This document shows, one piece after another, positions 960 to 59,450 of a DNA stretch of 64,000 bases; position 1 is the stretch's first letter, and each line of letters begins with the position of its first letter. The position numbers were made by a program, and so were the translations under genes. The notes beneath the pieces were generated by a model. It did not search any database. It saw nothing but the letters and a program-made list of their open reading frames with translations, and was not told the origin of the DNA. Origin of the DNA: Caldisericia bacterium (GTDB lineage: Bacteria > Caldisericota > Caldisericia > JAAYUI01); contig JAGOOO010000002.1 in the NCBI GenBank assembly GCA_017992475.1, positions 1-64,000 on the forward strand, in the 5' to 3' direction.

Positions 960-988
960 TTGAAAGGTTCCCGAAACAAATGGATAAT
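960..988 (+). promoter_or_regulatory. Sigma70-type promoter for a leaderless gene (start 995)
   Basis: TTGAAA at 960..965, a 17-base spacer, and GATAAT at 983..988 lie only six bases before the ATG at 995. Transcription would begin at or next to the start codon, leaving no room for a ribosome binding site. Confidence 0.55.
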
Positions 989-994
989 TCATCC

Positions 995-3067
995 ATGAGA
1001 CGTTTGTCTGCTTTCCTTGTGGTGTTGGCAATTTCACAATCTTTTTGTTTTGCTGGCGGTATTTCATCGGCACCATTTCCGTTCAAAAAAACCTGTATTG
1101 TAGAACTGGCAACGTCTGTAAACTGCAGCTATTGCCCTGTTGCGGAGAAGGCGCTCAAGGAGCTGGAATCTGAAAATGATCTATCCGATATGGTGATTTT
1201 TGCCCACCACTACAAAGATTCGCTTTCGTGCTATGGTGGCAATTCGAGAATGGCAGAGTATGGGGTGAATGCCACTCCAATAGCGATCTTTAATGGCCAG
1301 GACTACTATGTTGGTGGTGATCCCAACTGCAAAGACCGCTACAGGCAGAAAATATCCGACCAGCTTTCGCAAACCAGCCCTTTCCTTGTGCATTTAATGG
1401 GCAAGATAGAGAAAAGCAAACTTAGTCTGACCGCCTGGGTTGTTGCCTGGGAATACCTCCCTCCGGATGTCAATTACACATTTCTGGTTGGCCGTCTAGA
1501 CACAAAAACTGATGGAAGGCATTATCCTTGGGTAACCAGAGATGTGGTGCCAAAACCTACTGGGACTCCGATAAAATTCTCAAACTTTTCGGTGACCAGA
1601 TTTGAAGCTACTTACGACCTGCTTTCCATACCAGAAGATGAGGTCTTTGCATCTTTTGTGCTTGAATCTTTTGCTAAAAAAAATATTTTTCAGGTGGCAT
1701 CATGGCGTCCCGGGTGCCTGCAAGCAAGCTCATTTGAGCCATCGCTTGGCCTGAAGCTTGATACTTCCCCATCTTCTGTGACGATATCTTTCCCCACTGG
1801 CAAAAAGCTTGAAAAAATCGGGAAAGTTACCTTCGTGGATTCAAAGGGCAAGAACTACCAAGTTGTGCCGAAGCTTGATGGTGAAAAAGCGATTTTTACA
1901 CCATCGGGCAAATTGCCTGATGGAACATATCTTCTTTATATCGCGTCTGGGAAAGATGGCCTTTCCTCCGGCAGTTCAATCCTCAATTCGCCAGCATTCC
2001 TTTTCTTCAAAGTGGAAGAAAAAACGACTGTTCCAGACCCTCCTGAACCTCCGCCAACCAAACCTGCAAAGCTCCTGGTCGAGAAACTTGGTTTTGATCT
2101 TGGCGAGATACCGCGCAAGTCAGGACGTGAGCTGTATTTTGACATCAAGAACGAGGGTGATGAAAAGCTTTCTGGCAAGGTTGCCGTTGATTGTGAGTGG
2201 CTCTCTGTTGAACCATCGACCTTTGATAATGCGCCTGCCACAATAAAATGCACGGTGGATACGGAAAAAATGAGACCAGGGGTTGATGAATCATGCATTA
2301 TTTCAATAACCTCGAACGGTGGTGATGCAACAATTGGGGTCAAAGCTAGAACACACATGCTTCCGCCACTTCTTAACGTTGAACCAGCAGAGCTGAATTT
2401 TGGGGAGAATCTCGACAAGATCATAACTTTCGAAGTCAAAAACCTTGGCGAGTCAGTTATCTCTGGGACTGCCAAAAGCGCCCAATCATGGCTGTCAATT
2501 ACGCCTGAGGAATTCGGTGGAGACACCAATATCAATGTATCGATCAACAAAGCCGAAATACCCAAATTTGAAGAACCAGGCAAACATACAATTGAAGGTA
2601 CGATAGTTGTTGAGACAAACGGCGGGCTCATTGAAATCAAAGTGAAAGCGATTGTTGTTGTCGAGAAACAGCCAATTGTGATTGAATTGATGGTTGGGAC
2701 CCCGTTTGCAGTTGTTGATGGTAAAACCAAGCTCCTCCAAGCTCCTCCAATGATTGTATCCGGAAGAACCCTTGTTCCATTGAGGTTTGTTGCAGAAACT
2801 TTTGGTGGTCAGGTCCTGTGGGATCAGGCCACAAAAACAACCACGCTGAAATTTGAATCGAAAAAGGTTGAGATTTCTTTGCGTTCTGGCGAGGCAAAGG
2901 CCACAATAAAAGATGAAACGGGAGTCAGAACAGTTGAACTTGTTCCAGGTCTGACAATAAAAAGTGGAACCAGTTTTGTCCCATTGAGATTTTTCTCGGA
3001 AGTTCTGGGTGCGACTGTCGAGTGGTTTGCCCAGGAGAAGAGAATAAGGATAGTTTATTTGCCCTAG
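995..3067 (+). CDS. Secreted thioredoxin-fold/Ig-like/copper amine oxidase N-terminal (stalk) domain protein
   Basis: About 690 residues. A signal peptide (MRRLSAFLVVLAISQSFCFA) is followed by a thioredoxin-like segment with the pair NCSYCPVAEKAL near residue 40, similar to Omp28-like redox domains. Two Ig-like/BACON-type repeats start near residues 361 and 461 (LGFDLGEI..., ELNFGEN...). The C-terminal copper-amine-oxidase-N 'stalk' domain starts near 566 and carries the paired signature SGRTLVPLRFVAE / GTSFVPLRFFSE. The domain order suggests an extracellular, surface-exposed protein. I chose the start at 995 rather than the in-frame ATGs at 938 or 980 because it begins a classical signal peptide directly behind a promoter. 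Its stop codon shares the bases CTAG with the convergent minC stop. Confidence 0.8.
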   Translation: MRRLSAFLVVLAISQSFCFAGGISSAPFPFKKTCIVELATSVNCSYCPVAEKALKELESENDLSDMVIFAHHYKDSLSCYGGNSRMAEYGVNATPIAIFNGQDYYVGGDPNCKDRYRQKISDQLSQTSPFLVHLMGKIEKSKLSLTAWVVAWEYLPPDVNYTFLVGRLDTKTDGRHYPWVTRDVVPKPTGTPIKFSNFSVTRFEATYDLLSIPEDEVFASFVLESFAKKNIFQVASWRPGCLQASSFEPSLGLKLDTSPSSVTISFPTGKKLEKIGKVTFVDSKGKNYQVVPKLDGEKAIFTPSGKLPDGTYLLYIASGKDGLSSGSSILNSPAFLFFKVEEKTTVPDPPEPPPTKPAKLLVEKLGFDLGEIPRKSGRELYFDIKNEGDEKLSGKVAVDCEWLSVEPSTFDNAPATIKCTVDTEKMRPGVDESCIISITSNGGDATIGVKARTHMLPPLLNVEPAELNFGENLDKIITFEVKNLGESVISGTAKSAQSWLSITPEEFGGDTNINVSINKAEIPKFEEPGKHTIEGTIVVETNGGLIEIKVKAIVVVEKQPIVIELMVGTPFAVVDGKTKLLQAPPMIVSGRTLVPLRFVAETFGGQVLWDQATKTTTLKFESKKVEISLRSGEAKATIKDETGVRTVELVPGLTIKSGTSFVPLRFFSEVLGATVEWFAQEKRIRIVYLP

Positions 3068-3729
3068 CGGACGCTTACTACAACTATCGAATCACCTTCA
3101 ATGAAGGCTTTTTGAGTTCTGAGCTCCCTCTTTAGGCCCTGGGCCGATGGTGAAACCGCCACTTTGTCTGCAATTCTTAGTTGGACCGGCTCAAAATCCA
3201 TTGCAATGATGTAGGATTCTCTATTTCCTTTGCAGCCGGCACAAACCCTTCCCCTGACTGCGCCCATGACGAAAACATTGCCTGTTGCAACAACCTCGGC
3301 CCCTGGGTTCACGTCTCCAGCAACAACTATATCACCTTCATATTCGACTGACTGCCCAGCCCTGAGAGTGTGGGAAATGACTTTGGTATTGCAGAGCTGC
3401 GGGCCTGTCTTGAAGAGTTTATCTTCCTCAATTTTTGGTTTTTCTTCTTCGCCCTGTACAGGAATGAGCGGAGCAACGTCGACGCCATACTTTAGTTTTA
3501 GCGATGACCTGAAGTAGTCGAATTCGTCTTTTGTGAATGCCCTTTCCTTTAGCGAAACCATGATCTGGTTTCCAGAGAAAAAACTTTTTGCTGACTTGAT
3601 TTTTTGTTCCAGTTTTGAGAACAGCCTCACCAAGTCATATTTTTCATCGACGATCACGTTCACGCCGTCTATTGTTCCCTTGATTGTGACGGCATCATCC
3701 GGAATGGCTTTTCTTGGCATGGTGGCCAT
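3064..3729 (-). CDS. minC: Septum site-determining protein MinC
   Basis: About 221 residues. The N-terminal domain opens with VTIKGTIDGVNVIVDE. The C-terminal beta-helix has the hallmark GDVNPGAEVVATGNVFVMG, then GRVCAGCKGN and a hydrophobic end (QLRIADKVAVSP). MinC inhibits FtsZ ring formation away from mid-cell, normally recruited to the membrane by MinD. No minD or minE lies in this window. The start at 3729 sits five bases after the maf stop; longer in-frame starts overlap maf and have no ribosome site. It is the last gene of the nfnA-nfnB-amrS-maf-minC run. Confidence 0.88.
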   Translation of the reverse strand: MATMPRKAIPDDAVTIKGTIDGVNVIVDEKYDLVRLFSKLEQKIKSAKSFFSGNQIMVSLKERAFTKDEFDYFRSSLKLKYGVDVAPLIPVQGEEEKPKIEEDKLFKTGPQLCNTKVISHTLRAGQSVEYEGDIVVAGDVNPGAEVVATGNVFVMGAVRGRVCAGCKGNRESYIIAMDFEPVQLRIADKVAVSPSAQGLKRELRTQKAFIEGDSIVVVSVR

Positions 3730-3734
3730 GTATT

Positions 3735-5337: not shown

Positions 5338-5343
5338 TTTCTC

Positions 5344-7568: not shown

Positions 7569-7605
7569 CGCACACCCCCTTTGGTTTTGTTTACAACCGG
7601 AAGTA

Positions 7606-7634
7606 AGTATAGATTTTGGCGGGTTTATTGTCCA
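7606..7634 (-). promoter_or_regulatory. Promoter of the nfnA operon
   Basis: On the minus strand, TGGACA (7629..7634) is followed by a 17-base spacer and TATACT (7606..7611). The predicted leader to the TTG start at 7568 is about 30 bases and contains the AAAGGGGG ribosome site, so this unit is not leaderless. Confidence 0.55.
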
Positions 7635-7694
7635 GTATGAAGCACCCAAAAAATGGCCTGCCAATTCGTGCAAGAATTTTAAACTACGGGGCGT

Positions 7695-7700
7695 TATAAT
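7695..7700 (+). promoter_or_regulatory. -10 box TATAAT seven bases before the M6 peptidase start
   Basis: A consensus TATAAT ends seven bases before the ATG at 7708, and there is no Shine-Dalgarno sequence. I see no convincing -35 box at the expected distance, so this is the weakest -35 in the leaderless set. Confidence 0.5.
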
Positions 7701-7707
7701 CCCTTTC

Positions 7708-9381
7708 ATGAAGAAGTTTTTTATTTTAACACTGGCCTTGCTGATTGTTTTGCCATTACTGCCAGATGGTTTTGGCACTTTGGCTCAGGAAGTTTCCGAC
7801 TTAAAGTTAATTGTTGTCGCAGCTGACTTTTCTGATGCTCCGCACAAAAGTGAATTTTCAAATATGTGCGATGAGCTTTTCTCAGAGAGTGGCCAGAGCC
7901 TTAACAGGTTTTATAAAGAGGTATCATCCGGCACCATAAAGGTTTCGCAGGGGTCTTTTCTTAAGGGTGGCTGGGTAAGGATGCCTAAGCCAATAACATA
8001 TTACGCGCAGGACAACGAGGAATCTTTTGACATCAGATGCCATGAGATGATTGACACATTGATGCACGAAGCTGCAAAAAGTGGGCTTGATTTTGATGAA
8101 TATATCAAGAGCTGGTCGCAACCCCCGTGTGTTTGTATTGTTGTGTCAGGTGGGTGTGAAGGATATACCAATTTCCCAAAAAATGACGGTTTCTGGCCGC
8201 ACATGTCCATGAGTTCCGTGACCATAGATGGGAAGACAATAGAATTTCTTTACGTCCTTGTTTGTGAAGAGCAATCGGTCAACAGCACTGCAAGCCAGGT
8301 CATGGCGCATGAATTTGGTCACATAATGGGTTTGGCGGACCTTTATGACTACGATTGCGGAGGGCCTTTCAAGGAAGGTGATTGCGGCTACCCGGTGACC
8401 TGTTTTGATATCATGGCCGCCAGGCACAAAGGACTTGGGATGAGCGGTTTCCACAGAGAAAGAATGGGTTTCCTCCGCCCCATTGTTGTTGGCCAAAGCG
8501 GTGAATACGACATTCCACCGATAACCACCAACGCAAATGGGAGCTACCTTGTCGTTCCTATTGAAGGAACCAAGGAATATCTTGCGCTGGAATACAGGAA
8601 GAAAGAAGGCACAGACGCTTTCTGGGGTGGAATACCGTCCGAGGGCCTCTTGGTTTACAAAATTGATGATTCAGTTACTTACAGGCATCGCTTCAACAGT
8701 GGCGACAAAAACAACCATTATGCAGTCGAAATCTTGAATCCTGGCAAAACAGAATGGCACGAAAATGCTTGCTACTCAATTGAATCTGGCCATACGGTCG
8801 CTTCTCCAAAAACTGATCCTTCAACGCTCCCTTTTGACAAAAACTATACAAAAATTGTAACAGTTGAGGTTCTTTCAAAGCTCGGTCCCACATTGAAGGT
8901 CAGAATAACAATAACACCAAAAGAAAACGTCTTTTTCTCTATGGACAAGAACTGGGCGGTGACTGGGGATTTGCATAAGACATGCCTTAGGGTTAGAATG
9001 TTCAATAAAGGAAGCAATCCAGTGATGCTCGATTGTGATCCCCAGGTTTTCGGGGAGAAAAGTGTCAAGCTAAATCCTGATGAGGGCAAAGACATTTCGC
9101 TGGTTCTTTCTTATCCAAAAGACAAATTGGGGGAGAGACTTGTTGAAAAAAGTGTCTCTGTGGAATCTGAGAACCAAACCTTTTTCTTTAAGGTATTTCT
9201 GAGGAATGCTTATTTTATTATGGATTACAACTCCAATGGCGTAATTGAGGAGGAAGATCTGTTGAAGATTTTTTCTAGCCTTAGCACTAAAGAGATGAAA
9301 TATGATCTGGATGGAGATGGCGCCGTTGGTTATGGGGATTTTATAGTGGCCTCCAGATATATTGGGGTTAAGTATAAATGA
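7708..9381 (+). CDS. Secreted M6-family (immune-inhibitor-A-like) metallopeptidase with dockerin-like tail
   Basis: 557 residues with a signal peptide (MKKFFILTLALLIVLPLLP). The zinc site HEFGHIMGLADLYD, the M6/metzincin-like HExxHxxGxxD, is near residue 200. A beta-rich region follows. The C-terminus holds two calcium-loop repeats, DYNSNGVIEEEDL and DLDGDGAVGYGDF, spaced as in dockerin domains. It should be an extracellular endopeptidase. I chose the start at the signal peptide; the open frame continues 238 codons further upstream, but that part is antisense to nfnA. The TGA overlaps the ATG of the next stalk-domain gene, so the two are probably made together. Confidence 0.85.
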   Translation: MKKFFILTLALLIVLPLLPDGFGTLAQEVSDLKLIVVAADFSDAPHKSEFSNMCDELFSESGQSLNRFYKEVSSGTIKVSQGSFLKGGWVRMPKPITYYAQDNEESFDIRCHEMIDTLMHEAAKSGLDFDEYIKSWSQPPCVCIVVSGGCEGYTNFPKNDGFWPHMSMSSVTIDGKTIEFLYVLVCEEQSVNSTASQVMAHEFGHIMGLADLYDYDCGGPFKEGDCGYPVTCFDIMAARHKGLGMSGFHRERMGFLRPIVVGQSGEYDIPPITTNANGSYLVVPIEGTKEYLALEYRKKEGTDAFWGGIPSEGLLVYKIDDSVTYRHRFNSGDKNNHYAVEILNPGKTEWHENACYSIESGHTVASPKTDPSTLPFDKNYTKIVTVEVLSKLGPTLKVRITITPKENVFFSMDKNWAVTGDLHKTCLRVRMFNKGSNPVMLDCDPQVFGEKSVKLNPDEGKDISLVLSYPKDKLGERLVEKSVSVESENQTFFFKVFLRNAYFIMDYNSNGVIEEEDLLKIFSSLSTKEMKYDLDGDGAVGYGDFIVASRYIGVKYK

Positions 9382-10238: not shown

Positions 10239-10257
10239 TACTACAATTACAATTGGC

Positions 10258-10296: not shown

Positions 10297-10361
10297 TTTG
10301 GTGTTATTTTTTTAACAATAAAAAAGCCTAGCGTGCGCCAGGCCATCTTTCAGGGGGAAGA

Positions 10362-23771: not shown

Positions 23772-25803
23772 TTTTCCTCCTCGTCTTTCCTTTGAAGATC
23801 AAAAGTAATGCAGGTATTGCGATTATTACTATGGTTCCAGAAATCAACGCTCCTCTGGCCAACAGCATTGTCAGGTCTTTGACCATTGAAATCTGTGAAG
23901 TTGCTGAAATTGCGGCACATGCGCCAAAAAGTGTGAGTGCCGATGTGATAATTGCCGGAGAGCCTTCTCTTATGGATATTTTCATGGCCTCTTCTGGCGG
24001 TTTTTCTTTTAACTCATCGAAATATCTTGTTGCGATTAGAATTGAATAGTCAACTGTTGCGCCAAGTTGTATTGCTCCAAGCGCAACCGGACCAAAGTAG
24101 AATGTTGGTGGCATGTTCAAGAACCACTGGATTGCTATGTTGAGCCATATCGCCACCTCTATTCCGACTATTAAAACGAGTGATGGCTTGAATCTCCTGA
24201 GTGCTATCCAGACTATTGCGAATACCCCAAGGACGGTTGCGATGTTGACTTTCAGGTTGTCTGATACACCCATTTTTTCAATATCGTATTGGATCATGTC
24301 CGTACCTGTTGCTAGTACGTTGCCGTTATATTCCTTTTCAATTGCCTTTATGTTCTCAAAAGATTTTTCCAACTCGGCTTTGTTCGGTGCATCCAGTGTC
24401 ACGGTCAACAGGTGTTTTCCTTCCGATTCCAGTTTTGCAAGCACTTTTTTGGGCACGTACGATCTTGGAACATAGGCAGAGCCGGTTGAAAGTGGGCCGA
24501 TTATTTCCTTGACGTGGGGCACTTTTGATAGTTTTTCCTCAACCTCCAGTCGCTGGTTTTCATCCATTCCAAGCAAAACAACCGAGACTGTGTGGCCGCC
24601 ACCGAATTTTTCCATCACCAAATCAAGGTCTTTTTGCACACTTTCGTCAAATTTGATTCCCTCTTCAAAGGAGTAAGTGACAGGTTGCATGTTCGAGCCT
24701 ATGAAAGCTGGCACTGCAAGCACCAAAAAGACAAGTGCTATTATCCCTTTGTTTTTGACAACGAAATTGCCAAGCTTTTCCATGTTTGGAAAGAGGTTTC
24801 TGTGTTTTAGGGCATTGAGCGGTTTTTCAATTATCAATATTAGGGCAGGCAGTATCGTAAGTGTCACGATGAAACCCACAAAAACGCCCTGGGCCATTAC
24901 TATTCCCATGTCTCCCCCCATCTTCATACTCATGAAGAGGAGCGCCAGGAACCCTGCCATTGTGGTCAGGCCAGAGGAAAGAACAGCTGTGGAAGTTTTT
25001 GCAATTGATTTTGCCATTGCCTCCAGGGAGGGGAGCGTTTTCTTTTCCTCCTCGTATCGGTGTAGCAGGAATATCGCATAATCCATTGTTACCGCAAGCT
25101 GGAGTGCAGCGGCAATAGACGATGTCATGAAGCTCATCTGCCCCCTGAAAAATCCGGTCAGGCCAAAATTTATGAGTATGGCGATTCCTGCAGAAACAAG
25201 AAAGAGTATCGAATAAGCTGGCTGAGTGAGTGCCAGAACAAGTACCAGGAGAATTGCTATGACAGCAATTACAAGCATCGAGCTTTTTGCTGAATTAGAG
25301 AGCCTTTCAACCTCTTGATTGTACAGAAAATCACCAACAACCCTTGCTTCAACTCCAAGTTCTGCTTTTATGGCCTCAGCCTGTTGCGATGGCTTTCTTC
25401 CAGTTGGTGCCAGCGTGATTTGTATGAGCGTGTCCTCGCCTGAAAGGAATTGGTCCCTGGCCTCTTTTGAAGCAAAATCTTCCGGTATTTTCACATCTTC
25501 AAGATCTGAATACCAGAAGGTTTCTGCAACATCCGGCATTTTGTTTAGCCTGTCGATGATCTCCTTGGTTTCGCTGACTGTTTTCCCGGAAAGCACCACG
25601 TAGATGTTGTCCGAAAACCCAAAATCCTCCTGTAATATTTTTTGGCCAATCACAGAATTGATGTCCTGGGGAAGGTATGAGTAAAAATCATAATTGATTG
25701 AGAGCTTGCCAATCCCTATGGCGGAGAGCAGAAGGATACCAAGGCAGGAAATCGCAACGCCTATCCTGTTCTTTACGATCCAAGTTCCGATCTTCTCAAG
25801 CAT
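23764..25803 (-). CDS. MMPL/HAE3-type RND-superfamily exporter
   Basis: 679 residues with the twin architecture of MMPL transporters. Helix 1 is near the N-terminus, followed by an extracellular loop (about 35-170), five helices containing QLAVTMDYAIFLLHRYEEE, then helix 7, a second loop, and the second helix bundle with QLGATVDYSILIATRYFDE. These two (T/V)xDY(A/S)I motifs in mid-membrane hold the proton-relay Asp residues typical of MMPL. It should export a hydrophobic or lipid substrate by proton motive force; the substrate is unknown. It lies between tetR and the coiled-coil gene with overlaps of 8 bases on both sides. Confidence 0.9.
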   Translation of the reverse strand: MLEKIGTWIVKNRIGVAISCLGILLLSAIGIGKLSINYDFYSYLPQDINSVIGQKILQEDFGFSDNIYVVLSGKTVSETKEIIDRLNKMPDVAETFWYSDLEDVKIPEDFASKEARDQFLSGEDTLIQITLAPTGRKPSQQAEAIKAELGVEARVVGDFLYNQEVERLSNSAKSSMLVIAVIAILLVLVLALTQPAYSILFLVSAGIAILINFGLTGFFRGQMSFMTSSIAAALQLAVTMDYAIFLLHRYEEEKKTLPSLEAMAKSIAKTSTAVLSSGLTTMAGFLALLFMSMKMGGDMGIVMAQGVFVGFIVTLTILPALILIIEKPLNALKHRNLFPNMEKLGNFVVKNKGIIALVFLVLAVPAFIGSNMQPVTYSFEEGIKFDESVQKDLDLVMEKFGGGHTVSVVLLGMDENQRLEVEEKLSKVPHVKEIIGPLSTGSAYVPRSYVPKKVLAKLESEGKHLLTVTLDAPNKAELEKSFENIKAIEKEYNGNVLATGTDMIQYDIEKMGVSDNLKVNIATVLGVFAIVWIALRRFKPSLVLIVGIEVAIWLNIAIQWFLNMPPTFYFGPVALGAIQLGATVDYSILIATRYFDELKEKPPEEAMKISIREGSPAIITSALTLFGACAAISATSQISMVKDLTMLLARGALISGTIVIIAIPALLLIFKGKTRRKNA

Positions 25804-26380
25804 TCTTCTCCTTCAGAAGGCCGTAAAGGCAAATATCAATGAATTCATCGATAGCATTGTCCATTGGGAACTCGTAGCCTGCATTGGAAGTGAAGAACTG
25901 CAGGATTGCCATCAAAGCCATGCTGATGATTGACTTGTAGTCGTTTTCCCTCAGGATGCCTGATTTTTTCCCCAAATTCAGGAGTTCGGTCAGGTAGTTG
26001 CTTACCCGTCCCAGCACCATTATCTGGAACCTGTGGAGCTCCTCGTTGTTTTTGGCCTCGTTTGCAAGGATCCTTATTGTCTGGGCGTTATCGCGCACGA
26101 TCCCTGTAAAACCGTGGAATATTTCATATACCTTTTCAATAAACTCTTTTTGTGAGATTGTTTTTTGTCCAGCAAGGTCATACTGGAAGCTGTATTGCAT
26201 TCTTTCGATGAGCTCTTTTGCCATTTCCACCATCAGCGCTTCCTTGCTCTCGAAATAGAGGTAGAAAGTCCCTTGTGCCACTCCAGCCTGGGCAACGATG
26301 TCTGCAATCCTGGTTTTGGCAAAACCCTTTTCAGAAATGACTGCGACTGCCGCTTCCATTATCTCGCCTTTTCTGTCCAT
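25796..26380 (-). CDS. TetR-family transcriptional regulator
   Basis: 194 residues. The N-terminal HTH reads IMEAAVAVISEKGFAKTRIADIVAQAGVAQGTFYLYFESKE, shown here in pieces: the recognition helix is AQGTFYLYF. The C-terminal ligand domain is helical (FTGIVRDNAQTIRILANEA). The start at 26380 has AAGGAG five bases upstream; the earlier in-frame start at 26404 falls inside an operator. It is the first gene of tetR-mmpL-coiled-coil and, from the tandem operators over its promoter, represses its own operon. The inducer is probably a substrate of the exporter (inference). Confidence 0.9.
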   Translation of the reverse strand: MDRKGEIMEAAVAVISEKGFAKTRIADIVAQAGVAQGTFYLYFESKEALMVEMAKELIERMQYSFQYDLAGQKTISQKEFIEKVYEIFHGFTGIVRDNAQTIRILANEAKNNEELHRFQIMVLGRVSNYLTELLNLGKKSGILRENDYKSIISMALMAILQFFTSNAGYEFPMDNAIDEFIDICLYGLLKEKNA

Positions 26381-26392
26381 CTCATCTCCTTG

Positions 26393-26429
26393 TGACTGAA
26401 CCATCAGTCAGTGACTGACTAATCAGTCA
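26393..26429. promoter_or_regulatory. Two tandem TetR operators
   Basis: Two perfect palindromes, TGACTGA-N4-TCAGTCA, at 26393..26410 (spacer ACCA) and 26412..26429 (spacer CTAA), with centres 19 bases apart. The second overlaps the -10 box of the tetR promoter. Confidence 0.85.
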
Positions 26430-26456
26430 TATATCACAATGAAGATTTTGAGTCAA
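26428..26456 (-). promoter_or_regulatory. tetR operon promoter
   Basis: On the minus strand, TTGACT (26451..26456), a 17-base spacer and TATATG (26428..26433), with the -10 box embedded in the edge of the second operator. Confidence 0.75.
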
Positions 26457-29501: not shown

Positions 29502-29800
29502 TTCCCCTCCTTGTCCCATAATTTGAGGCATTCATCAACATCTTCGCAATTTTTTTGTTTGCAGTTATCAAATATCTCCAGAAATTTTTTTACACCAGGA
29601 ATGTTCATCTTTTTTTCATTGATGAGGAACTTGACGAGTTCGAGACGTTCAAGGTCCCTGGCGGAATAAAGCCTTCTTCCGTTGACCCTGTTCGGGGTTA
29701 TGAGTCCTTTTTGTTCCCAAAGCCTGAGGGTCTGCTCACAGACCCCAAGAACATCGGCCACCGCTCCAACTGTCATTACTGGTTTCGTGTCTTCTATCAC
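29498..29800 (-). CDS. MerR-family regulator with C-terminal cysteine cluster, nifSU operon leader gene
   Basis: 100 residues. A MerR winged helix (VGAVADVLGVCEQTLRLWEQKG...NGRRLYSARDLERLELV) is followed by a short helix and a tail NCKQKNCEDVDEC with three cysteines, plus one more in the HTH. It is shorter than metal-sensing MerR proteins with dimerisation coiled coils and resembles the HspR-like branch. Its GTG start is seven bases after a -10 box, so the message appears leaderless. Being first in a unit with nifS-nifU and rich in cysteines, it may sense Fe-S, metal or redox state to control cluster assembly; this is inference. Confidence 0.85.
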   Translation of the reverse strand: MIEDTKPVMTVGAVADVLGVCEQTLRLWEQKGLITPNRVNGRRLYSARDLERLELVKFLINEKKMNIPGVKKFLEIFDNCKQKNCEDVDECLKLWDKEGK

Positions 29801-29807
29801 GAACCAT

Positions 29808-29835
29808 ATAATATATCCTCAATGTTAATTTTCAA
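29808..29835 (-). promoter_or_regulatory. Promoter of leaderless merR-nifS-nifU
   Basis: On the minus strand, TTGAAA (29830..29835), a 16-base spacer and TATTAT (29808..29813); exactly seven bases then lead to the GTG start at 29800. Confidence 0.7.
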
Positions 29836-29922: not shown

Positions 29923-31755
29923 CTATTTTGAAAGAGACGCTTTGATTTTTTCGTAGATTGAGGTTGTGTCAAGTTTTTGTGACTCAAGCAATTCTTTTCT
30001 GGAGCCATTTTCTGGAAATGCATTTTGGATGCCGATTATGCGCAATGGTGGTATATGTTCCATCAATCTTTGCCCTATTCCACCACCAGTGACGCCTTCT
30101 TCAATGAAGAATACAACTTTTTTGCCTTTTGCATGCTTTAACATAGAATCCGTGTCGAGAGGACTGGCGAACCTCATGTTTAAAACAGCGCACGAGAAGC
30201 CATCTTTTTCGAGCATCTCGGAGATGGTGGCCACCTCTTGCCTGAAAGTGCCGATGTATGCAAGAAGGATATCATCGCCATTCTTTGTGAGTTCGGCTTT
30301 TCCGAAAACCACGTCTTCGCAATCGGTTTTTAGGGCTACATCCTTTGGGTACCTGATGGCCGAAGGGCCCTTTGACGAGAAAGCAATTTCGAGCATCTGG
30401 CACAATTCCTCGGCACAGGATGGCGCCATGACGGTGATGTTTGGAACCAGCGAGAGGTAGGCCAGATCAAAAATGCCCTGGTGTGTTGGGCCATCATCTG
30501 GAACAAGGCCTGCCCTGTCGATTGCGAAAATGACCGGCAGATTCATGAGCGCCACATCATGGATTATCTGGTCGTAGGCCCTCTGCAGGAAAGTGCTATA
30601 TATTGCCACAACAGGCTTCAGCCCGTTCCTGGCAAAGGCTGAAGCCAGAGACACAGCGTGCTGTTCAGCTATTCCGACATCAAAGAGCCTGCCTGGAAAT
30701 ACCCTCTGGAATTCCGCAAGGCCGGTTCCATCCGACATTGCGGCAGTTATTGCCACAATCGATTTGTCTTTTTTGGCAGCCTCGACCATGCACTCCCCAA
30801 AAACCTTCGAGTATGTGGGTTTTCCGTTTGCCGTTTCACCATTTGCAGGCTTGAATGGTGCCGTGCCATGGTATTCGGTTGGTTTTGATTCTGCAAATGA
30901 ACAGCCCTTGCCCTTTTTTGTGACAACGTGGAGGAGTACCGGGCCTTTCATGTGTTTTATCCTGCCAAGAAAAGCAAGCAGGAGTGGTATGTCGTGTCCG
31001 TCAACCGGGCCAAGGTACCTGAATCCGAGCTGTTCAAAGTACTGGTCGGCCATAAGAAATCTCTTGAGGGCTCCTTTTATCCTGAAGCCCATCCCGACGG
31101 CCCATTCGCCAAAGCGTCCCATTCTTGAAAAACCTTTGCCGACATAGTGACTGAACCTGCGATAAAAGATTGCCGCCCTGAGTTTGCTTGTGAACAGCGA
31201 GAGGGCACCAACCGATGGCGAGATTGACATCTGGTTGTCATTGAGGATGACAAGGACATCTGTGTCCATCTGGCCTATGTGATTGAGCGCCTCGAAGCAT
31301 TCACCACCGGTAAGTGATCCGTCGCCAACAATTGCAATTACTGAATGTTTTTCGCCCTTGAGGTCCCTTGCAATTGCCTCTCCGGCTGCAAGAGAGACGG
31401 CCGTTGACGCGTGCCCTGTTTTGTAAAGGTCATATTGGGATTCGTCAGGATTTGGAAAACCTGAAAGCCCACCTTTTTTTCTTATGCTGCCAAACCTGTC
31501 CAGCCTTCCGGTTATAATTTTGTGGGCGTAGCACTGGTGGCCCACGTCAAAGATTATCCTGTCTTTGGGGGAATCAAAAATCCTGTGAAGGGCAATTGTC
31601 AACTCCACGATTCCGAGGTTAGATGCCAGATGGCCACCATTTTTTGAAACGGCGTCGACAACCGCTTCCCTTATTTCGCAAGCGAGCTTGCCAAGGTCCC
31701 TGGTCCTCAATTTCTTGAGGTCACCCGGCCCTTTTATTCGACCAAGAATTTCCAT
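29923..31755 (-). CDS. dxs: 1-deoxy-D-xylulose-5-phosphate synthase
   Basis: 610 residues; condenses pyruvate and glyceraldehyde 3-phosphate, the first step of the MEP isoprenoid pathway (dxr and ispG are elsewhere in the window). Seen are DVGHQCYAHKIITGR, the TPP-binding GDGSLTGGECFEALN...NDNQMSISPSVG, the transketolase central region DVGIAEQHAVSLASA and DRAGLVPDDGPTHQG. I put the start at the ATG at 31755, which stands seven bases after a -10 box and fits a leaderless transcript; the TTG (31764) and GTG (31758) starts fall at the edge of that box. Confidence 0.95.
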   Translation of the reverse strand: MEILGRIKGPGDLKKLRTRDLGKLACEIREAVVDAVSKNGGHLASNLGIVELTIALHRIFDSPKDRIIFDVGHQCYAHKIITGRLDRFGSIRKKGGLSGFPNPDESQYDLYKTGHASTAVSLAAGEAIARDLKGEKHSVIAIVGDGSLTGGECFEALNHIGQMDTDVLVILNDNQMSISPSVGALSLFTSKLRAAIFYRRFSHYVGKGFSRMGRFGEWAVGMGFRIKGALKRFLMADQYFEQLGFRYLGPVDGHDIPLLLAFLGRIKHMKGPVLLHVVTKKGKGCSFAESKPTEYHGTAPFKPANGETANGKPTYSKVFGECMVEAAKKDKSIVAITAAMSDGTGLAEFQRVFPGRLFDVGIAEQHAVSLASAFARNGLKPVVAIYSTFLQRAYDQIIHDVALMNLPVIFAIDRAGLVPDDGPTHQGIFDLAYLSLVPNITVMAPSCAEELCQMLEIAFSSKGPSAIRYPKDVALKTDCEDVVFGKAELTKNGDDILLAYIGTFRQEVATISEMLEKDGFSCAVLNMRFASPLDTDSMLKHAKGKKVVFFIEEGVTGGGIGQRLMEHIPPLRIIGIQNAFPENGSRKELLESQKLDTTSIYEKIKASLSK

Positions 31756-31762
31756 CACTGCC

Positions 31763-31790
31763 AAAATAGACCAGGTTGGCCATTTTTCAA
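31763..31790 (-). promoter_or_regulatory. Promoter of leaderless dxs
   Basis: On the minus strand, TTGAAA (31785..31790), a 16-base spacer, TATTTT (31763..31768), then seven bases to the ATG at 31755. Confidence 0.65.
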
Positions 31791-31796: not shown

Positions 31797-31824
31797 TTGA
31801 CCAACCACATATTAAGGCTATACT
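31797..31824 (+). promoter_or_regulatory. Promoter of leaderless CoA-binding gene
   Basis: TTGACC (31797..31802), a 16-base spacer and TATACT (31819..31824), then eight bases to the ATG at 31833. Its -35 box is six bases from the dxs -35 box on the other strand. Confidence 0.75.
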
Positions 31825-31832
31825 CGACCAGG

Positions 31833-32228
31833 ATGGATAAAATCAGGGATATTCTTGGCAAGGCAAGAGTCATTGCGGTAGTTGGTGCCTCTCTTGATGA
31901 GTGTTCTGCAAGCTTTCCCATAACCAAGTACCTTATTACCAGGGGATTTGGTGTTTATCCTGTCAACCCGAAATATGCTGGCGAAGAAATTTCGGGCGTC
32001 AAATTTCTGGCCAGTCTTTCAGATATAAAAGAAAAAATAGATATAATCGATGTCTTCAGGAGATCGGAGGCAATACCTGGAATGGTGGACGATTTTCTTG
32101 CTGCCAGACCGGGGGTTGTGTGGTTTCAGCTCGGGATATATGCCCCTGACTCGTTCAAAATCCTTGAAGAAAACGGCATAGAAGTGATATATGATCGCTG
32201 TATATACAAAGAACTGATGGAGTGTTGA
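31833..32228 (+). CDS. CoA-binding (YccU-like) domain protein
   Basis: 131 residues forming a single Rossmann CoA-binding domain (IAVVGASLDECSASFPITKYLITRGFGVYPVNP split here as the ligand loop VGASLDE and the strand GVYPVNPK; then RRSEAIP, VWFQLGIYAP, and the Cys-containing end YDRCIYKEL). Family members bind CoA or acyl-CoA and have no known enzyme activity. The start is directly behind a promoter. Its TGA overlaps the ATG of the downstream thioesterase by one base (TGATG), linking both to CoA metabolism. Confidence 0.85.
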   Translation: MDKIRDILGKARVIAVVGASLDECSASFPITKYLITRGFGVYPVNPKYAGEEISGVKFLASLSDIKEKIDIIDVFRRSEAIPGMVDDFLAARPGVVWFQLGIYAPDSFKILEENGIEVIYDRCIYKELMEC

Positions 32229-35312: not shown

Positions 35313-35341
35313 TTGACTTATTTGTGAATTTTGGCTAGAGT
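35313..35341 (+). promoter_or_regulatory. Promoter of leaderless cstR-like gene
   Basis: TTGACT (35313..35318), a 17-base spacer and TAGAGT (35336..35341), then exactly seven bases to the GTG at 35349. Confidence 0.65.
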
Positions 35342-35348
35342 TGAGCAA

Positions 35349-35618
35349 GTGAAAGACAATGAAGCCAGATCATCAGTTATAAAGAGGCTCTCAAAGATAG
35401 AAGGTCAGGTGAGAGGCCTTGTGCGCATGATATCTGAAGAACGATCATGTGATGAAATAATCAATCAGATCCAGGCCGTAAAGGCCGGAATAAACAAAGT
35501 CGCAGCAATCATCCTGGAAAGAAACATCGTTGATTGTTTAAGTCTTTCGGAAAATACAGACCAAACAGAAATTGAGAAGCTCAGAAAGCTTCTCTCCAAA
35601 ATTGCAGGTAGTAAATGA
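35349..35618 (+). CDS. CsoR/FrmR-family repressor, CstR-like persulfide sensor
   Basis: 89 residues, all-helical DUF156 family. It has the family's IKRLSKIEGQVRGL and QIQAVKAGINKVA helices. The sensing positions are Cys (SCDEII), Asn (LERNIV, where copper-sensing CsoR has His) and Cys (VDCLSL). Cys-Asn-Cys is the pattern of CstR, which senses persulfides and polysulfide, rather than the Cu(I) set Cys-His-Cys. It is followed 24 bases later by a GlcD-like gene. A CsoR/CstR-type palindrome lies before the sulfur-relay operon at 40506. Start GTG 35349 is preferred to the upstream TTG because of the promoter position. Confidence 0.82.
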   Translation: MKDNEARSSVIKRLSKIEGQVRGLVRMISEERSCDEIINQIQAVKAGINKVAAIILERNIVDCLSLSENTDQTEIEKLRKLLSKIAGSK

Positions 35619-38460: not shown

Positions 38461-39321
38461 ATGATAGACTACATCGACAAAATACAGGGTGCAATAAACT
38501 TTATGGAAGCAAGACTCAAGGAGAGAGTGGGGCTTGGTGATATTGCAAAAGAAGCCGGGTTTTCCTCTTTTCATTTCCACAGGATATTCCTTGCCAATGT
38601 CGGTGAAACGGTCACTGAGTATGTGAGAAAAAGAAGGCTTTCAGAAGCTGCGCGCGAGCTGATGGAAACCGACCACAGAATACTCGACATCGCTGTTGAC
38701 TATCAATTTGAAAGCCAGCAGGCTTTCACAAGGGCCTTCAAAAAAATGTTTTTTGTACCTCCTGGGCGGTGCAGACGGGAGAAACCTGCTGTGCATCTGT
38801 TTTTCAGGAGACGTTTGGACAGGGAAGGCCTAAGATTCCTGAGAGGAGGAGTAGTAGGAATGGAACCGAAAATTGTTGAACTTGGTGAAATAAAGGCTGT
38901 TGGAATCAGGTATTATGGTGATAATAAAAATGGTGAGATAAAGCAAGTTTGGGACAAATTTAATAAAGATATGTGTTGCATGAAGAATGTTAGCAAGCCA
39001 GGAATAGCGCTTGGAATTTGTTCTATGATTGAGGGTGGTGACCCAGGGAAGTTTGAGTATGTTTGCTCCATGAAGGTTGACAATACCTCTGAGATACCAG
39101 ATGGTATGGTTGCAAGAGTTCTTCCACCACACAAGTACCTTGTTTTTACCCACAAAGGAAAGCTCGACAACCTTGGCGAGACCTACAATTACATCTATCA
39201 GAACTGGATACCTAAATCAGGCCATGAGATTGATAGCTCGTTTGACTTTGAGCTCTATGACGACAGGTTCTGTTATGGCAAGGATGAATCAGAGTTTGAT
39301 ATCTATATCCCGATAAAATAG
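38461..39321 (+). CDS. AraC-family regulator with GyrI-like effector domain (copy 1)
   Basis: 286 residues. The N-terminal pair of AraC helix-turn-helices has LGDIAKEAGFSSFHFHRIFLA and LDIAVDYQFESQQAFTRAFKKMF. The C-terminal half (from about 135) is a GyrI-like small-molecule binding domain (KIVELGEIKAVGIRYYGD ... ALGICSMIEGGDPGKFEYVC ... YNYIYQNWIPKSGHEID). Such regulators respond to drugs or metabolites. The start lacks a clear Shine-Dalgarno sequence. It is a tandem duplicate of the next gene; the DNA-binding halves are almost identical, the effector halves are not. Confidence 0.85.
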   Translation: MIDYIDKIQGAINFMEARLKERVGLGDIAKEAGFSSFHFHRIFLANVGETVTEYVRKRRLSEAARELMETDHRILDIAVDYQFESQQAFTRAFKKMFFVPPGRCRREKPAVHLFFRRRLDREGLRFLRGGVVGMEPKIVELGEIKAVGIRYYGDNKNGEIKQVWDKFNKDMCCMKNVSKPGIALGICSMIEGGDPGKFEYVCSMKVDNTSEIPDGMVARVLPPHKYLVFTHKGKLDNLGETYNYIYQNWIPKSGHEIDSSFDFELYDDRFCYGKDESEFDIYIPIK

Positions 39322-39465: not shown

Positions 39466-40338
39466 ATGATAGACTACATCGACAAAATACAGGGTGCAAT
39501 AGATTTTGTGGAAGCAAAACTCAAAGAGGATGTCAGGCTTAACGATGTTGCTTTTGAAGCTGGTTTTTCATCCTTCCACTTCCACAGGATTTTCCTTGCC
39601 AATGTCGGTGAAACGGTCACCGAGTATGTGAGAAAAAGAAGGCTTTCAGAAGCTGCGCGCGAGCTGATGGAAACCAATCGAAGAATACTTGATATTGCTG
39701 TCGACTATCAATTTGAAAGCCAGGAGGCTTTCACAAGGGCCTTCAAAAAAATGTTTTTTATGTCTCCAGGACAGTGCAGACGGGAGAAACCTGCTATATG
39801 TCTATTCCTTAAGAGGTGCTTAGACAGAGAAGGCCTGAAATTCATGAGAGGAGAAAAAATAGAAGTGGAATCAAAAATACTCGAACTTGGTGAAGTAAAG
39901 GCCATTGGACTCAGATGTTATGGCGATGTTAGAGAAAATGGATTGAAACAAGAAATAAAACAACTTTGGGAGAAATTCAATAAAGTGGCAAGTTCCGTAA
40001 AAAACATAAGTAAGCCCGGTGTTGCGCTTGGAATTTGTTCAATGATTGAGGGTGAGGAGCCATATATAATGGAATACGTTTGCTCTATGAAAGTCGATGA
40101 TTTCTCGGATGTGCCTCGAGGAATGGTTATCAGAAAACTCTCTCCTCAAAAATATGCTGTTTTTACGCATAAAGGTAAGCTTGATAAAGTTGGGCAAACC
40201 TATGATTATATATATCAAACATGGCTTCCCCAGTCAGGATGCGAACTCATTGATGCTCCTGATTTTGAATTATACGACGATCGGTTTGCTCCTGATAAGG
40301 ATGAGTCAGAATTTGATATCTATATCTCGATAAAATAG
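39466..40338 (+). CDS. AraC-family regulator with GyrI-like effector domain (copy 2)
   Basis: 290 residues, the tandem partner of the gene at 38461. It opens with the same MIDYIDKIQGAI and shares the stretch RIFLANVGETVTEYVRKRR without change. The GyrI-like half has diverged and carries a few extra residues (YGDVRENGLKQEIKQLW). The start is aligned to copy 1; the ATG at 39448 is six codons earlier and lacks support. TAAAAT at 39444..39449 is 16 bases before the start, the same spacing as TAGAAT in copy 1. The two could compete for the same operators while sensing different ligands. Confidence 0.85.
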   Translation: MIDYIDKIQGAIDFVEAKLKEDVRLNDVAFEAGFSSFHFHRIFLANVGETVTEYVRKRRLSEAARELMETNRRILDIAVDYQFESQEAFTRAFKKMFFMSPGQCRREKPAICLFLKRCLDREGLKFMRGEKIEVESKILELGEVKAIGLRCYGDVRENGLKQEIKQLWEKFNKVASSVKNISKPGVALGICSMIEGEEPYIMEYVCSMKVDDFSDVPRGMVIRKLSPQKYAVFTHKGKLDKVGQTYDYIYQTWLPQSGCELIDAPDFELYDDRFAPDKDESEFDIYISIK

Positions 40339-51648: not shown

Positions 51649-51700
51649 CCAGAACAAAATCCATGCGTTGTAAAATAATGACCCGAAAAGGAGTGGTTAG

Positions 51701-55234: not shown

Positions 55235-55261
55235 AATAGTCTAAAAGCGACAAAAAACCGT

Positions 55262-55305
55262 TTGACAATGTCATATCACACAATAAAATGTGTGATATGA
55301 CATTG
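55262..55305 (+). promoter_or_regulatory. Promoter embedded in a 17-bp perfect inverted repeat
   Basis: TTGACA (55262..55267), a 16-base spacer, TAAAAT (55284..55289), then seven bases to the ATG at 55297. The arms CAATGTCATATCACACA (55266..55282) and TGTGTGATATGACATTG (55289..55305) are perfect, with a six-base centre ATAAAA. They span the promoter and the start codon, as expected of an autorepressor operator. Confidence 0.85.
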
Positions 55306-55641: not shown

Positions 55642-57119
55642 ATCACTTTCTGGATATCTGGATCAAGGGAGAGGAACTGGTCGAGCCAGGCCCTGCGCTC
55701 TTTTCTGAGAGAGTCATTCTTTGCTTTCAGTTCTTCAGGCGTGAAATAGTTTCTTGGGTCAAGCCTGTTTATGTCAACACCTTCACACTCTGAGAGGACT
55801 TCATACCCCCAATAATCGTCCTTGCGCCACTTTACAGCGCCCCTTGCGATCTGTTTGAGAATTCCAACCGAGTCTGATATTCTGATCTTCTCTTTGTTGC
55901 CAATCTTGCCAGTGTTGAGGAGGAAGCATTGCATGTGTGGATTTTTTTTGAGAAGGTCCATGATATAGTTGCCTTCATCATCAAGTGGTCCGACAATAAA
56001 TGGGTTTGTTCCCACTTCACGCTTCGACTGGCCAGCTTTTGTTGGGTCGCCGGCTGATGTTTCGATTGACTCACCAAGCATGAAGAAGGCAGCTGCCTGC
56101 TCTGGAGACAGTTTTGCCACCGGCGGGACAATGTCGTCCCTGCGAGTGATGAAAACCACCATGTCGGTTTTTGGGATATCGATGCTGTTATCGGTGAATT
56201 TTATGTCAGAGCGCTGCACGACTGCTCTTCCATTTGTCCCTACATCGTAGTTGAGGAAATCGACTTTGCCGTTTTCTTCAACATGGATGTTCTCCAGGAC
56301 AGCAGTTCTTGCTACGGCCGCGTTGTAAAGGACAGGCTGGCCAACCGGCTCAAGACCCTCTGTTTTGATGTAGAAGTTCTTTTCCGTTCCAACACACTTT
56401 GTGTCTGGATAAATAATTACGACGTCATCCTGACGAATTGCCACACCCTCTTCGCCCTCAAGGAAATGGTGATGGCAGGTGAGGGTTGTCTTGCCTGTTC
56501 CAGAAAGACCAAACAGGATTATTCCCTTTTCGACGAGCTTTCCGTTGACGTCCTTGACCTTGATCATCTTTGAACCTGCATGAAGACCGAGTCCGCCATC
56601 CTGCTTGCCGCGATACATTGTCATCCTGAGGAATGATTTTTTGACCTCTCCAAAATAGTCCGTCCCCAGAACATAAGTCACACCATCGAGCGCATTTACT
56701 ATGACCTTTCTTTCCGGCCATTCCGGGACATCAACTGTTGTGAGGAAAGGACGATCGAGTTTTGTTGGCGGGAAGAGCAGGTTCTGCCACATATAAGGAA
56801 CTCTGGCGTATGGTTTTGTGATGTAGAGCCTGCAGGGAATCTGGTGGCCCGGTGTCTGGCACATCGTTCGCTCGGTATAGATGACTTCTTTGTCTTTCAG
56901 ATACTCTCTTACCTTCAAAATAGTCTCTACCTGTGATTTGGTTGGTTCAATTCCAACTATTTCTGTGAATTTTGCCGACCTATTCCTGATTTTTGTAACA
57001 TAGGAAGCGGAACCAAATTCAGTGGTTCTCTCATCTTTCCTGGCCATTTCCCTCAGCTCGTCCGGACCCAGTCCGGCAATTAGACGCCCCACTTGAAGGG
57101 GTTTAGTAAAAATGTCCAT
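55638..57119 (-). CDS. pckA: ATP-dependent phosphoenolpyruvate carboxykinase
   Basis: 493 residues; interconverts oxaloacetate and PEP with ATP/ADP. The kinase-1a motif is GLSGTGKTT and the metal-binding region ITRRDDIVPPVAKL, with QDDVVIIYPDT. AGGAGGAACG precedes the ATG. It ends the cobO-meaB-mutase-pckA operon, where it would handle C4 acids from the methylmalonyl-CoA/succinate route or run in reverse. It is somewhat divergent from E. coli PckA but complete. Confidence 0.92.
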   Translation of the reverse strand: MDIFTKPLQVGRLIAGLGPDELREMARKDERTTEFGSASYVTKIRNRSAKFTEIVGIEPTKSQVETILKVREYLKDKEVIYTERTMCQTPGHQIPCRLYITKPYARVPYMWQNLLFPPTKLDRPFLTTVDVPEWPERKVIVNALDGVTYVLGTDYFGEVKKSFLRMTMYRGKQDGGLGLHAGSKMIKVKDVNGKLVEKGIILFGLSGTGKTTLTCHHHFLEGEEGVAIRQDDVVIIYPDTKCVGTEKNFYIKTEGLEPVGQPVLYNAAVARTAVLENIHVEENGKVDFLNYDVGTNGRAVVQRSDIKFTDNSIDIPKTDMVVFITRRDDIVPPVAKLSPEQAAAFFMLGESIETSAGDPTKAGQSKREVGTNPFIVGPLDDEGNYIMDLLKKNPHMQCFLLNTGKIGNKEKIRISDSVGILKQIARGAVKWRKDDYWGYEVLSECEGVDINRLDPRNYFTPEELKAKNDSLRKERRAWLDQFLSLDPDIQKVI

Positions 57120-57133
57120 CGTTCCTCCTGAAT

Positions 57134-57529
57134 CTATTTTTTGTCTTTCACAACAGAATTGATGAATTCGACTACTTTTGAGGTTGGCGTCCCAGGGCCG
57201 AAAACGGCCGAAACACCGATTTTCTTCAGTTCCTCGGCATCATCGGCGGGTATGATTCCACCCACGAAGAGTGGTTTGCCCCAGATGCCGTTTTCTTTCA
57301 TTTTTTCAATTATTCTTGGCACAATGGACATGTGCGCACCAGAAAGGATTGATACACCTATGACATCAACATCTTCCTGTATTGCTGCTCTTATGATCAT
57401 TTCAGGTGTCTGGTGAAGACCGGTGTAAACAACCTCCATCCCAGCATTACGAAGAGCTTGGGCGATTACCTTGGCGCCCCTGTCGTGGCCGTCGAGACCA
57501 GGTTTAGCAATTATGACCTTTATTGCCAT
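57134..57529 (-). CDS. Methylmalonyl-CoA mutase B12-binding (C-terminal) subunit
   Basis: 131 residues: a separate cobalamin-binding domain. [18 protein letters not shown] has the His that ligates cobalt, followed by [14 protein letters not shown] and the glycine-rich loop VGGIIP. Split mutases, in which this subunit is separate from the catalytic barrel, are known in archaea and some bacteria; the catalytic subunit is not in this window. GGAGG precedes the ATG and it overlaps meaB by ten bases. Confidence 0.92.
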
Positions 57530-58452
57530 GGTTCCTCCATTTTATTTTTCCACAAAGTTTTGGCAACAGTCCACGGTGGGATGTCCTCGCCGAAAGACTT
57601 TTGGATATATTTTTTTCTTTCCGGCTCAAGCGCTTTGTCAAAAACAAAACTTCCAAGCCAGAAATCTATTTCTGAAAAATACCTTTCTATACATTTTTTG
57701 CTTCTCTCATCGTTTTTTATCAGATGCTCCATGTGTTTTTTTATTTGTGTATAGAGTTCTGATATACCGATGCTTTCTTTGGCTATGGTTTTAACTATTG
57801 GAGGTGCCCAATCTCTTGATGACAAGCCAAGTCCAAATGTCAGATCGGCTTCCATGACATCGCCACCAGGCCGATCTGTTTTGTTGATGCAAAAGATGTC
57901 TGCGCCCTCAAGGAGCCCAGCCTTCATCATCTGTATGGAATCGCCTGACTCTGGCGTTATTATCACGACAACCGTGTCGGTTTTTGAGACAACATCAACT
58001 TCTGTTTGGCCAACGCCAACAGTTTCTATGAGGATCACGGGATAGCCGCAGAAATCCAGGAAGTCAGCAACGATGGAGGTTGTTGGTGCCAATCCACCAA
58101 GATTTCCCCTGGTTGCCATTGATCTGATGAATACGCCAGGATCAGTGAAATGGTCAACCATCCTTGTCCTGTCTCCAAGGAGCGCGCCATGGGTGTAGGG
58201 AGAGCTTGGATCACAAGCAACAACGGCACACTTTGAGCCAGCCCTTCTGACCTCCGTGATGAGTTTTGAAACCACCGTGCTCTTGCCTGCCCCTGGTGGC
58301 CCCGTAATGCCGATTCTGTGGGCATTGCCAATGCAATGGTAGGAATCACCAAAAATAATCTCGGGGTTTTTGCCGTTTTCCAGGTATGTTATTATTTCAG
58401 CTTGGGCCTGATGATTGCCAGCTTTTGCCCTTTCAACAGTTTCAGTATTCAA
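57520..58452 (-). CDS. meaB: MeaB/ArgK-family GTPase (methylmalonyl-CoA mutase chaperone)
   Basis: 310 residues. The G domain has the P-loop [41 protein letters not shown] and NKTD. It protects and reloads the mutase with cobalamin. The start is TTG at 58452 behind GAGGGAAGG; a TTG at 58470 lacks a ribosome site. It overlaps cobO by 11 bases, so cobalamin adenosylation, loading and the mutase subunit are made together. Confidence 0.92.
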
Positions 58453-58963
58453 TGCCTTCCCTCGCCTCAAGATTTTGTGTATTGAAATAATGTTTTATTT
58501 CTTTCATTTCAGTAACAAGGTCTGCCATTTCAATGATTTCCGGATGGGCATATCTTCCAGTCAGGACCATCTCGGTCCCAGGGTATTTATCAAGCAACAT
58601 TTTTTTGGTTTCTTCAAGGCTTATCAGGCCAAAATATATGGCTACGTTTATTTCATCGGCAACTATGATGTCCCATTCTCCAGAAGCAGTTGCTTTTTTC
58701 AGAAAGGAAAGCCCTTCTTTTGCGAGCTCGACATCTACAGGGTCAGGATTTTTGGGATCAACAAATGATGGCCTTCCAAATTGCATGACCGTGATGCCCA
58801 GCACTCGCGAAGATTCAAGCTCACCGTAATCCTCTGATCCTTTCATGAACTGGACAAACAAGACACTTTTTTTGTGCCCTCTTGCCCTCATCGCCAGCCC
58901 GAAGGCACATGTTGTCTTGCCTTTGCCACAGCCGGTGTAAACTTGAATTTTTCCAAGGCTCAT
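58442..58963 (-). CDS. cobO: Cob(I)alamin adenosyltransferase, CobA/CobO type
   Basis: 173 residues; makes adenosylcobalamin, which NrdJ and the mutase need. It has IQVYTGCGKGKTTCAFGLAMRA with the P-loop, FMKGSEDYGE, DIIVADEINVAI and LTGRYAHPEI. The ATG at 58963 lies eight bases after a -10 box; the upstream TTG at 58972 overlaps that box. First gene of the operon with meaB, the B12 subunit and pckA. Confidence 0.94.
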   Translation of the reverse strand: MSLGKIQVYTGCGKGKTTCAFGLAMRARGHKKSVLFVQFMKGSEDYGELESSRVLGITVMQFGRPSFVDPKNPDPVDVELAKEGLSFLKKATASGEWDIIVADEINVAIYFGLISLEETKKMLLDKYPGTEMVLTGRYAHPEIIEMADLVTEMKEIKHYFNTQNLEAREGIEY

Positions 58964-58971
58964 TGGTCTCA

Positions 58972-58999
58972 ATCATAGGCCCACAAATGCACCTGTCAA
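58972..58999 (-). promoter_or_regulatory. Promoter of leaderless cobO operon
   Basis: On the minus strand, TTGACA (58994..58999), a 16-base spacer and TATGAT (58972..58977), then eight bases to the ATG. Confidence 0.75.
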
Positions 59000-59007
59000 C
59001 TCAATAC

Positions 59008-59035
59008 TTGATTTGACCTGGCTAGGGTCTAGAAT
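59008..59035 (+). promoter_or_regulatory. Promoter of leaderless DivIC-like gene
   Basis: TTGATT (59008..59013), a 16-base spacer and TAGAAT (59030..59035), then seven bases to the GTG at 59043. The -35 box is eight bases from that of cobO. Confidence 0.65.
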
Positions 59036-59042
59036 CTTTCTT

Positions 59043-59450
59043 GTGCCAAAAAGCAAGGCAAAAAAAATTACTATTGCCACCGGAAGGATAATGGTTTTTC
59101 TGGCCGTGCTTGCAGTGTTGTATTTTTTGCTCAGGCCAATAGCTCAGATTGATTACAGGGTTGCGAATTTGCTTATTGAAGCAAAAACCCTAGACGAATC
59201 CATTAACTCGCTTAAAAACGACATAAATACTGCTAAAAATGAGCTTGACATTAATCCGGGTGTTTACGAACGGCTGGCCAGAGAACAGTGGCAAATGGTC
59301 CATCCTGGTGAGATGATATATATCTGCAAGGATGATGAAGGTAACAACATCTTATCGCAATCTAATCTTATATTCAGGGAAAGAACTGAGCAAAAAAAAC
59401 CCAATCCATTTGTGATGCTTTGGAACTGGATTTTATCTTTATTTAGATAA
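59043..59450 (+). CDS. FtsB/DivIC-like septum formation protein
   Basis: 135 residues. A basic N-terminus (PKSKAKKITIATG) precedes a single transmembrane helix (IMVFLAVLAVLYFLLRP). A coiled coil follows (LIEAKTLDESINSLKNDINTAKNEL), then the family's short C-terminal motif (YERLAREQWQMVHPGEMIYI). Such proteins scaffold FtsL/FtsQ at the division site. The GTG start stands seven bases behind a -10 box; an upstream in-frame TTG overlaps the -35. tRNA-Met follows 50 bases later. Confidence 0.8.
   Translation: MPKSKAKKITIATGRIMVFLAVLAVLYFLLRPIAQIDYRVANLLIEAKTLDESINSLKNDINTAKNELDINPGVYERLAREQWQMVHPGEMIYICKDDEGNNILSQSNLIFRERTEQKKPNPFVMLWNWILSLFR

Follow-up and report, generated by a model that had tools for sequence, protein, structure and literature searches.

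Sigma70-type promoters directly before start codons point to leaderless expression as a second initiation mode in a Caldisericia genome

Nine transcription units of the window, and roughly a quarter of the genes that stand first in their transcription unit (unit-first genes), are very probably leaderless, with a sigma70-type -10 hexamer ending 6-8 bases before the start codon. The window is the whole stretch of DNA analyzed, bases 1-64000 of contig C17, in a 1.59-Mb assembly of 58 contigs that is 74% complete. One window protein was 95-98% identical to proteins of three Caldisericia/Caldisericales metagenome-assembled genomes (MAGs; G001-G003). These three and the window represent one genus, G004 belongs to another genus of their family, and G006, G009, and G019 are further families within the class Caldisericia; G019 is a single 1,558,103-bp contig and is probably Caldisericum exile. 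The placement in Caldisericales agrees with the first-pass annotation, which had judged the sequence to be neither actinobacterial nor from Deinococcus-Thermus. Three contig pairs of the same assembly (L005/L019, L008/L015, and L017/L037) were 92-94% identical over long stretches, and the MAG may be a mixture of two strains, despite 0.8% listed contamination.

All nine -10 hexamers of the first-pass annotation were reproduced with their spacings (d, the bases between hexamer and start codon) and their start codons. On the forward strand, the gene for a secreted Cu_amine_oxidN1/BACON protein (960-997) had -35 TTGAAA at 960-965 and -10 GATAAT at 983-988 (spacer 17) before ATG 995 (d = 6), and that for an M6-type metalloprotease with a signal-peptide-like N-terminus (7695-7710) had -10 TATAAT at 7695-7700 before ATG 7708 (d = 7) and no -35. 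A CoA-binding protein gene divergent to dxs (31797-31835) had TTGACC at 31797-31802 and TATACT at 31819-31824 (spacer 16) before ATG 31833 (d = 8); a CsoR-type metal-sensitive repressor gene (35313-35351) had TTGACT at 35313-35318 and TAGAGT at 35336-35341 (spacer 17) before GTG 35349 (d = 7); an HTH_3 protein gene (55262-55305) had TTGACA at 55262-55267 and TAAAAT at 55284-55289 (spacer 16) before ATG 55297 (d = 7); and a gene for a DivIC-like protein, divergent to cobA (59008-59045), had TTGATT at 59008-59013 and TAGAAT at 59030-59035 (spacer 16) before GTG 59043 (d = 7). Reverse-strand sites, all with spacer 16, preceded a MerR-family regulator gene (29798-29835; TTGAAA 29830-29835, TATTAT 29808-29813, GTG 29800, d = 7), dxs for 1-deoxyxylulose-5-phosphate synthase (31753-31790; TTGAAA 31785-31790, TATTTT 31763-31768, ATG 31755, d = 7), and the CobA/BtuR corrinoid adenosyltransferase gene (58961-58999; TTGACA 58994-58999, TATGAT 58972-58977, ATG 58963, d = 8). 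The claimed -35 boxes (TTGAAA/TTGACN/TTGATT) 16-17 bases above the -10 were confirmed at eight of the nine sites, 7708 being the sole exception. A good Shine-Dalgarno (SD) sequence was absent, as had been stated: GGAG, GAGG, and AGGA were missing within 18 bases at 9/9 sites. Combined promoter scores were 5.6-8.3 at seven sites, 3.6 at 7708, and 3.0 at 29800, where the script chose an overlapping hexamer (TATATT, d = 9) and not TATTAT; scores of at least 5 and at least 6 occurred at 0.16% and 0.06% of random positions, respectively.

In the divergent pairs 31755/31833 and 58963/59043, the start codons were 77-79 bp apart, and the gap consisted of two back-to-back promoters whose -35 boxes lay 6-8 bp apart. 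Because these promoters occupy the whole gap, there is little room for leaders. Similar divergent pairs were seen elsewhere in the assembly (L005 4580/4677 and L042 18805/18891). Upstream of the HTH_3 gene, a perfect 17-bp inverted repeat (CAATGTCATATCACACA/TGTGTGATATGACATTG, 55266-55305) flanks the -10 and spans the start codon; one position was altered in both arms together in G001, and the repeat looks like a putative autoregulatory operator on the leaderless promoter.

A genome-wide positional peak of the -10 motif, to which the first-pass annotation had looked as a check, was present at spacings 6-8 (mode 7) and only at in-frame starts of unit-first genes. The sample was 637 kb of the window's assembly, with 211 unit-first and 156 operon-internal genes called by a purpose-written script with a simple coding model, and not every individual start is correct; one version of the caller misplaced 19037 and 51737, which have SD-led starts just upstream. 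TANNNT before in-frame ATG codons was most frequent at spacing 7 (21 of the 211 unit-first genes). At the same spacing, it occurred 2 and 0 times before out-of-frame ATG codons of the same regions and in three operon-internal genes. Among 53 unambiguous starts, TANNNT alone was mildly enriched (8 vs. 3.7 expected), and the full promoter was found 11 times vs. 2.2 expected.

The sites were compared with up to three same-genus genomes (G001-G003, varying by site). Both promoter boxes were unchanged, except at 29800, where TATTAT became TATCAT in G002 and the -35 was invariant. The bases between -10 and start were altered at nearly every site, with the length staying at 6-8. The -35, -10, and ATG of 995 were kept in G001-G003 (-10-to-ATG spacing 6 or 7), as were the promoter and start of dxs, whose G004 ortholog was likewise called leaderless; 31833 was conserved in G001-G003, and 58963 and 59043 in G001 and G002. 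At 7708, the -10 was kept, and the discriminator varied in sequence at constant length. A 6-bp in-frame insertion directly follows the GTG of 35349 in G002, with the GTG still 7 nt from the -10. The first differences past the ATG of 55297 in G001/G002 were synonymous, and changes after the GTG of 59043 were synonymous or conservative. If the start codons were mis-assigned, the mRNAs would be leadered and translated from a codon further downstream, and at 59043 the 17th codon is indeed an ATG, preceded by a weak GGAAGG. This reading is unlikely: from the proposed starts on, substitutions in the same-genus genomes were mostly synonymous and indels were in frame, the proposed starts at 995, 7708, 31755, and 58963 coincide with the beginning of a signal peptide or of the family N-terminus, and the -10 peak depends on the reading frame. 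The GTG starts proposed in the first-pass annotation held at 35349 and 59043, whereas that at 29800 is less firm, with a candidate ATG downstream (+24) that would suit mis-assignment.

A joint expectation-maximization (EM) search with a free spacer distribution, seeded with TATAAT and not using the -35, converged in unit-first genes on a motif resembling TATAAT, for which spacers 6-8 carried 67% of the mass. From the same seed, the motif dissolved in operon-internal genes. The EM-called cases had a TTGACA-like -35 at spacers 16 (11 cases), 17 (seven), and 18 (five), for a total of 23/52; the remaining spacers between 5 and 31 each gave 0-2/52. When started at random, the EM did not recover the -10 motif, N-terminal hydrophobic codons (TTTGGC-like) dominated, and other local optima had higher likelihood. 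Being a local optimum, the seeded result serves only as a pointer and is no proof alone; because the random starts failed to return the -10, we relied on the frame-specific counts, a fixed promoter matrix, and null sets. The features of a real promoter were found, with the -35 at 16-18 and both boxes conserved in relatives. An alternative role of the AT-rich block as a translation enhancer (a ribosomal protein S1 site) in place of a promoter is very improbable: all relatives have an S1-like protein, although it scores under the family cut-off, and S1 binding can underlie AT-rich bias at -20 to -10 (PMC5397173), but the hexamer is of the TATAAT type at a fixed spacing, the -35 is in place, and the motif is absent from operon-internal genes. 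TATCAT was a frequent -10 hexamer in the window's genome, replacing TATAAT at many of the predicted leaderless starts.

The share of leaderless genes was estimated with a mixture of a fixed sigma70 matrix, fitted per spacer, and an SD class; the matrix frequencies were those of standard E. coli compilations. A sigma70-type promoter at spacers 5-9 was assigned to approximately 28-30% of unit-first genes (bootstrap 21-35%; four settings) and the SD class to 57-61%. With the same estimator, operon-internal genes had promoters at these spacers in 2% and SD sequences in 77%. Most operon-internal genes keep their SD sequences, much as the first-pass annotation had held, and its description of leaderless transcription as a standard mode stands for a substantial second mode but not for the main one. 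Shuffled upstream DNA (40 shuffles) gave 1.0% (maximum 3.7%) vs. 28.9% observed in unit-first genes, rotated upstream DNA gave 4.7% (maximum 9.4%), E. coli K-12 gave 0-0.3% in the same pipeline, and a Deinococcus deserti plasmid, the positive control, gave 14-20%. Confident leaderless calls (posterior >0.8, duplicates removed) were made for 39/207 genes, eight of which start with GTG. Reweighting the coding model had little effect on the population share. Upstream DNA rich in A and T often contains TANNNT by itself, but that chance supplied the signal is hardly credible, since none of the controls (E. coli, operon-internal genes, out-of-frame codons, and rotated or shuffled sequence) shows the peak and same-genus genomes conserve the sites. 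Leaderless expression remains the best reading, with -35 boxes found independently, a fixed distance to the start, restriction to unit-first genes, and conservation between strains and genera.

The same -10 peak was found in G004 (27%), G019 (20%), and G006 (15-21%), and was weak in the GC-rich G009 (f2; 6-7%). Reciprocal-best unit-first orthologs of the window's genome and G004 were leaderless in both in seven cases, SD-led in both in 23, SD-led in the window's genome and leaderless in G004 in one, and the reverse in none (Fisher test, P = 3e-6). The shared leaderless orthologs include dxs and the M6 protease, dnaX-like, PPDK_N-domain, Roadblock/LC7, and HAD hydrolase genes. With G019, there was little class agreement (one pair leaderless in both) among very few pairs. 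A wider proposal, for and against which we see the balance as even, is that in Caldisericota leaderless initiation forms an ancient second mode found throughout the class, used gene by gene and kept across genera beside a full SD apparatus, with the promoter doubling as translation start signal.

The promoter anatomy, fixed spacing, conservation, and confinement to unit-first genes are direct observations. In the proposed mechanism, housekeeping sigma70 RNA polymerase would bind the -35/-10 promoter. With the -10 only 6-8 bases away, transcription would begin at the first letter (A or G) of the start codon or up to two bases upstream of it. The mRNA would carry neither leader nor SD sequence, and translation presumably proceeds from the 5'-terminal AUG/GUG, as in known leaderless mRNAs; where exactly transcription starts and how the ribosome enters are what we infer from the sequence. 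Downstream operon genes and most other unit-first genes would use their SD sequences with an intact anti-SD. RpoD-type sigma matches were found in 20/21 genomes, over the cut-off in nine, including the window's genome.

The window's assembly lacks a 16S gene; in G001, G002, G004, and G019, the anti-SD CACCTCCTTT at the 16S 3' end was intact, and loss of the anti-SD was rejected as the cause of leaderless use. Absence of S1 or bS21 was likewise rejected as an explanation, since bS21 and the S1-like protein, the latter scoring under the family cut-off, were present in 21/21 genomes. With all three components present, leaderless use adds to SD initiation and does not replace it. A paper on anti-SD types lists Caldisericia with a CCUCC-containing anti-SD. 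Non-SD genomes, such as those of some Flavobacteriia, have lost CCUCC at the 16S 3' end (PMC10783764), unlike the Caldisericia relatives, which keep it.

TA-led genes are found in 207/953 bacterial genomes of many phyla (PMC3160421), and leaderless genes are given as predicted in 21.6% of bacterial species in PMC9581028 (citing Lomsadze 2018). The mechanism is not new, because leaderless genes are already predicted in many other phyla; the contribution here is a genuine and substantial second mode of this known kind, in a phylum where no report of it was found. Caldiserica are unmentioned in the text of PMC3160421, and a full-text literature search yielded no report of leaderless genes in Caldisericota; the supplementary species tables of PMC12340547 may list C. 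exile. The signal described in PMC3160421 was recovered: a TANNNT/TATAAT-like signal with its first T approximately 12 bases upstream exceeded shuffled sequence, and SD sequences were missing at the nine sites and present elsewhere. According to PMC3160421 and PMC12340547, leaderless genes are known in Deinococcus-Thermus, where TA-led genes similarly have TANNNT 6-7 bases before unit-first starts beside an SD-led class. The D. deserti control showed the same -10 peak as Caldisericia. Compared with Deinococcus-Thermus, the Caldisericia -10 is more nearly a complete TATAAT, with TATCAT also occurring, a TTGACA-like -35 is usually retained, and SD initiation is more dominant. Aquificae, delta-Proteobacteria, Acidobacteria, and Firmicutes (PMC3160421) are alike in their minority leaderless share, and mid-GC groups have a TATAAT-like -10 near the start.

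These results, backed by controls and by conservation, widen the range of leaderless expression to include a deep-branching phylum that has few cultured representatives. Leaderless mRNAs of Actinobacteria (M. tuberculosis, M. smegmatis) start with GUG as well as AUG. Caldisericia are alike in this respect (GTG in 8/39 confident calls), and differ in phylum and GC content and in that their starts are predicted from sequence alone. Gene starts can be corrected, particularly GTG starts and those in short intergenic regions. The peak in G019, probably a cultured species, opens the leaderless prediction to direct testing. Conservation of the initiation mode gene by gene across genera raises the question of why certain genes remain leaderless.

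Two further features of the window were observed. The tandem paralogs at 38461-39321 and 39466-40338 share the same N-terminus (MIDYIDKIQG...), lack an SD, and have AT-rich boxes resembling a -10 at a greater distance from the start. On the reverse strand, repeated TGACTGA..TCAGTCA palindromes at 26380-26430 lie upstream of an SD-led gene (25796-26380) and are probably a repressor operator.
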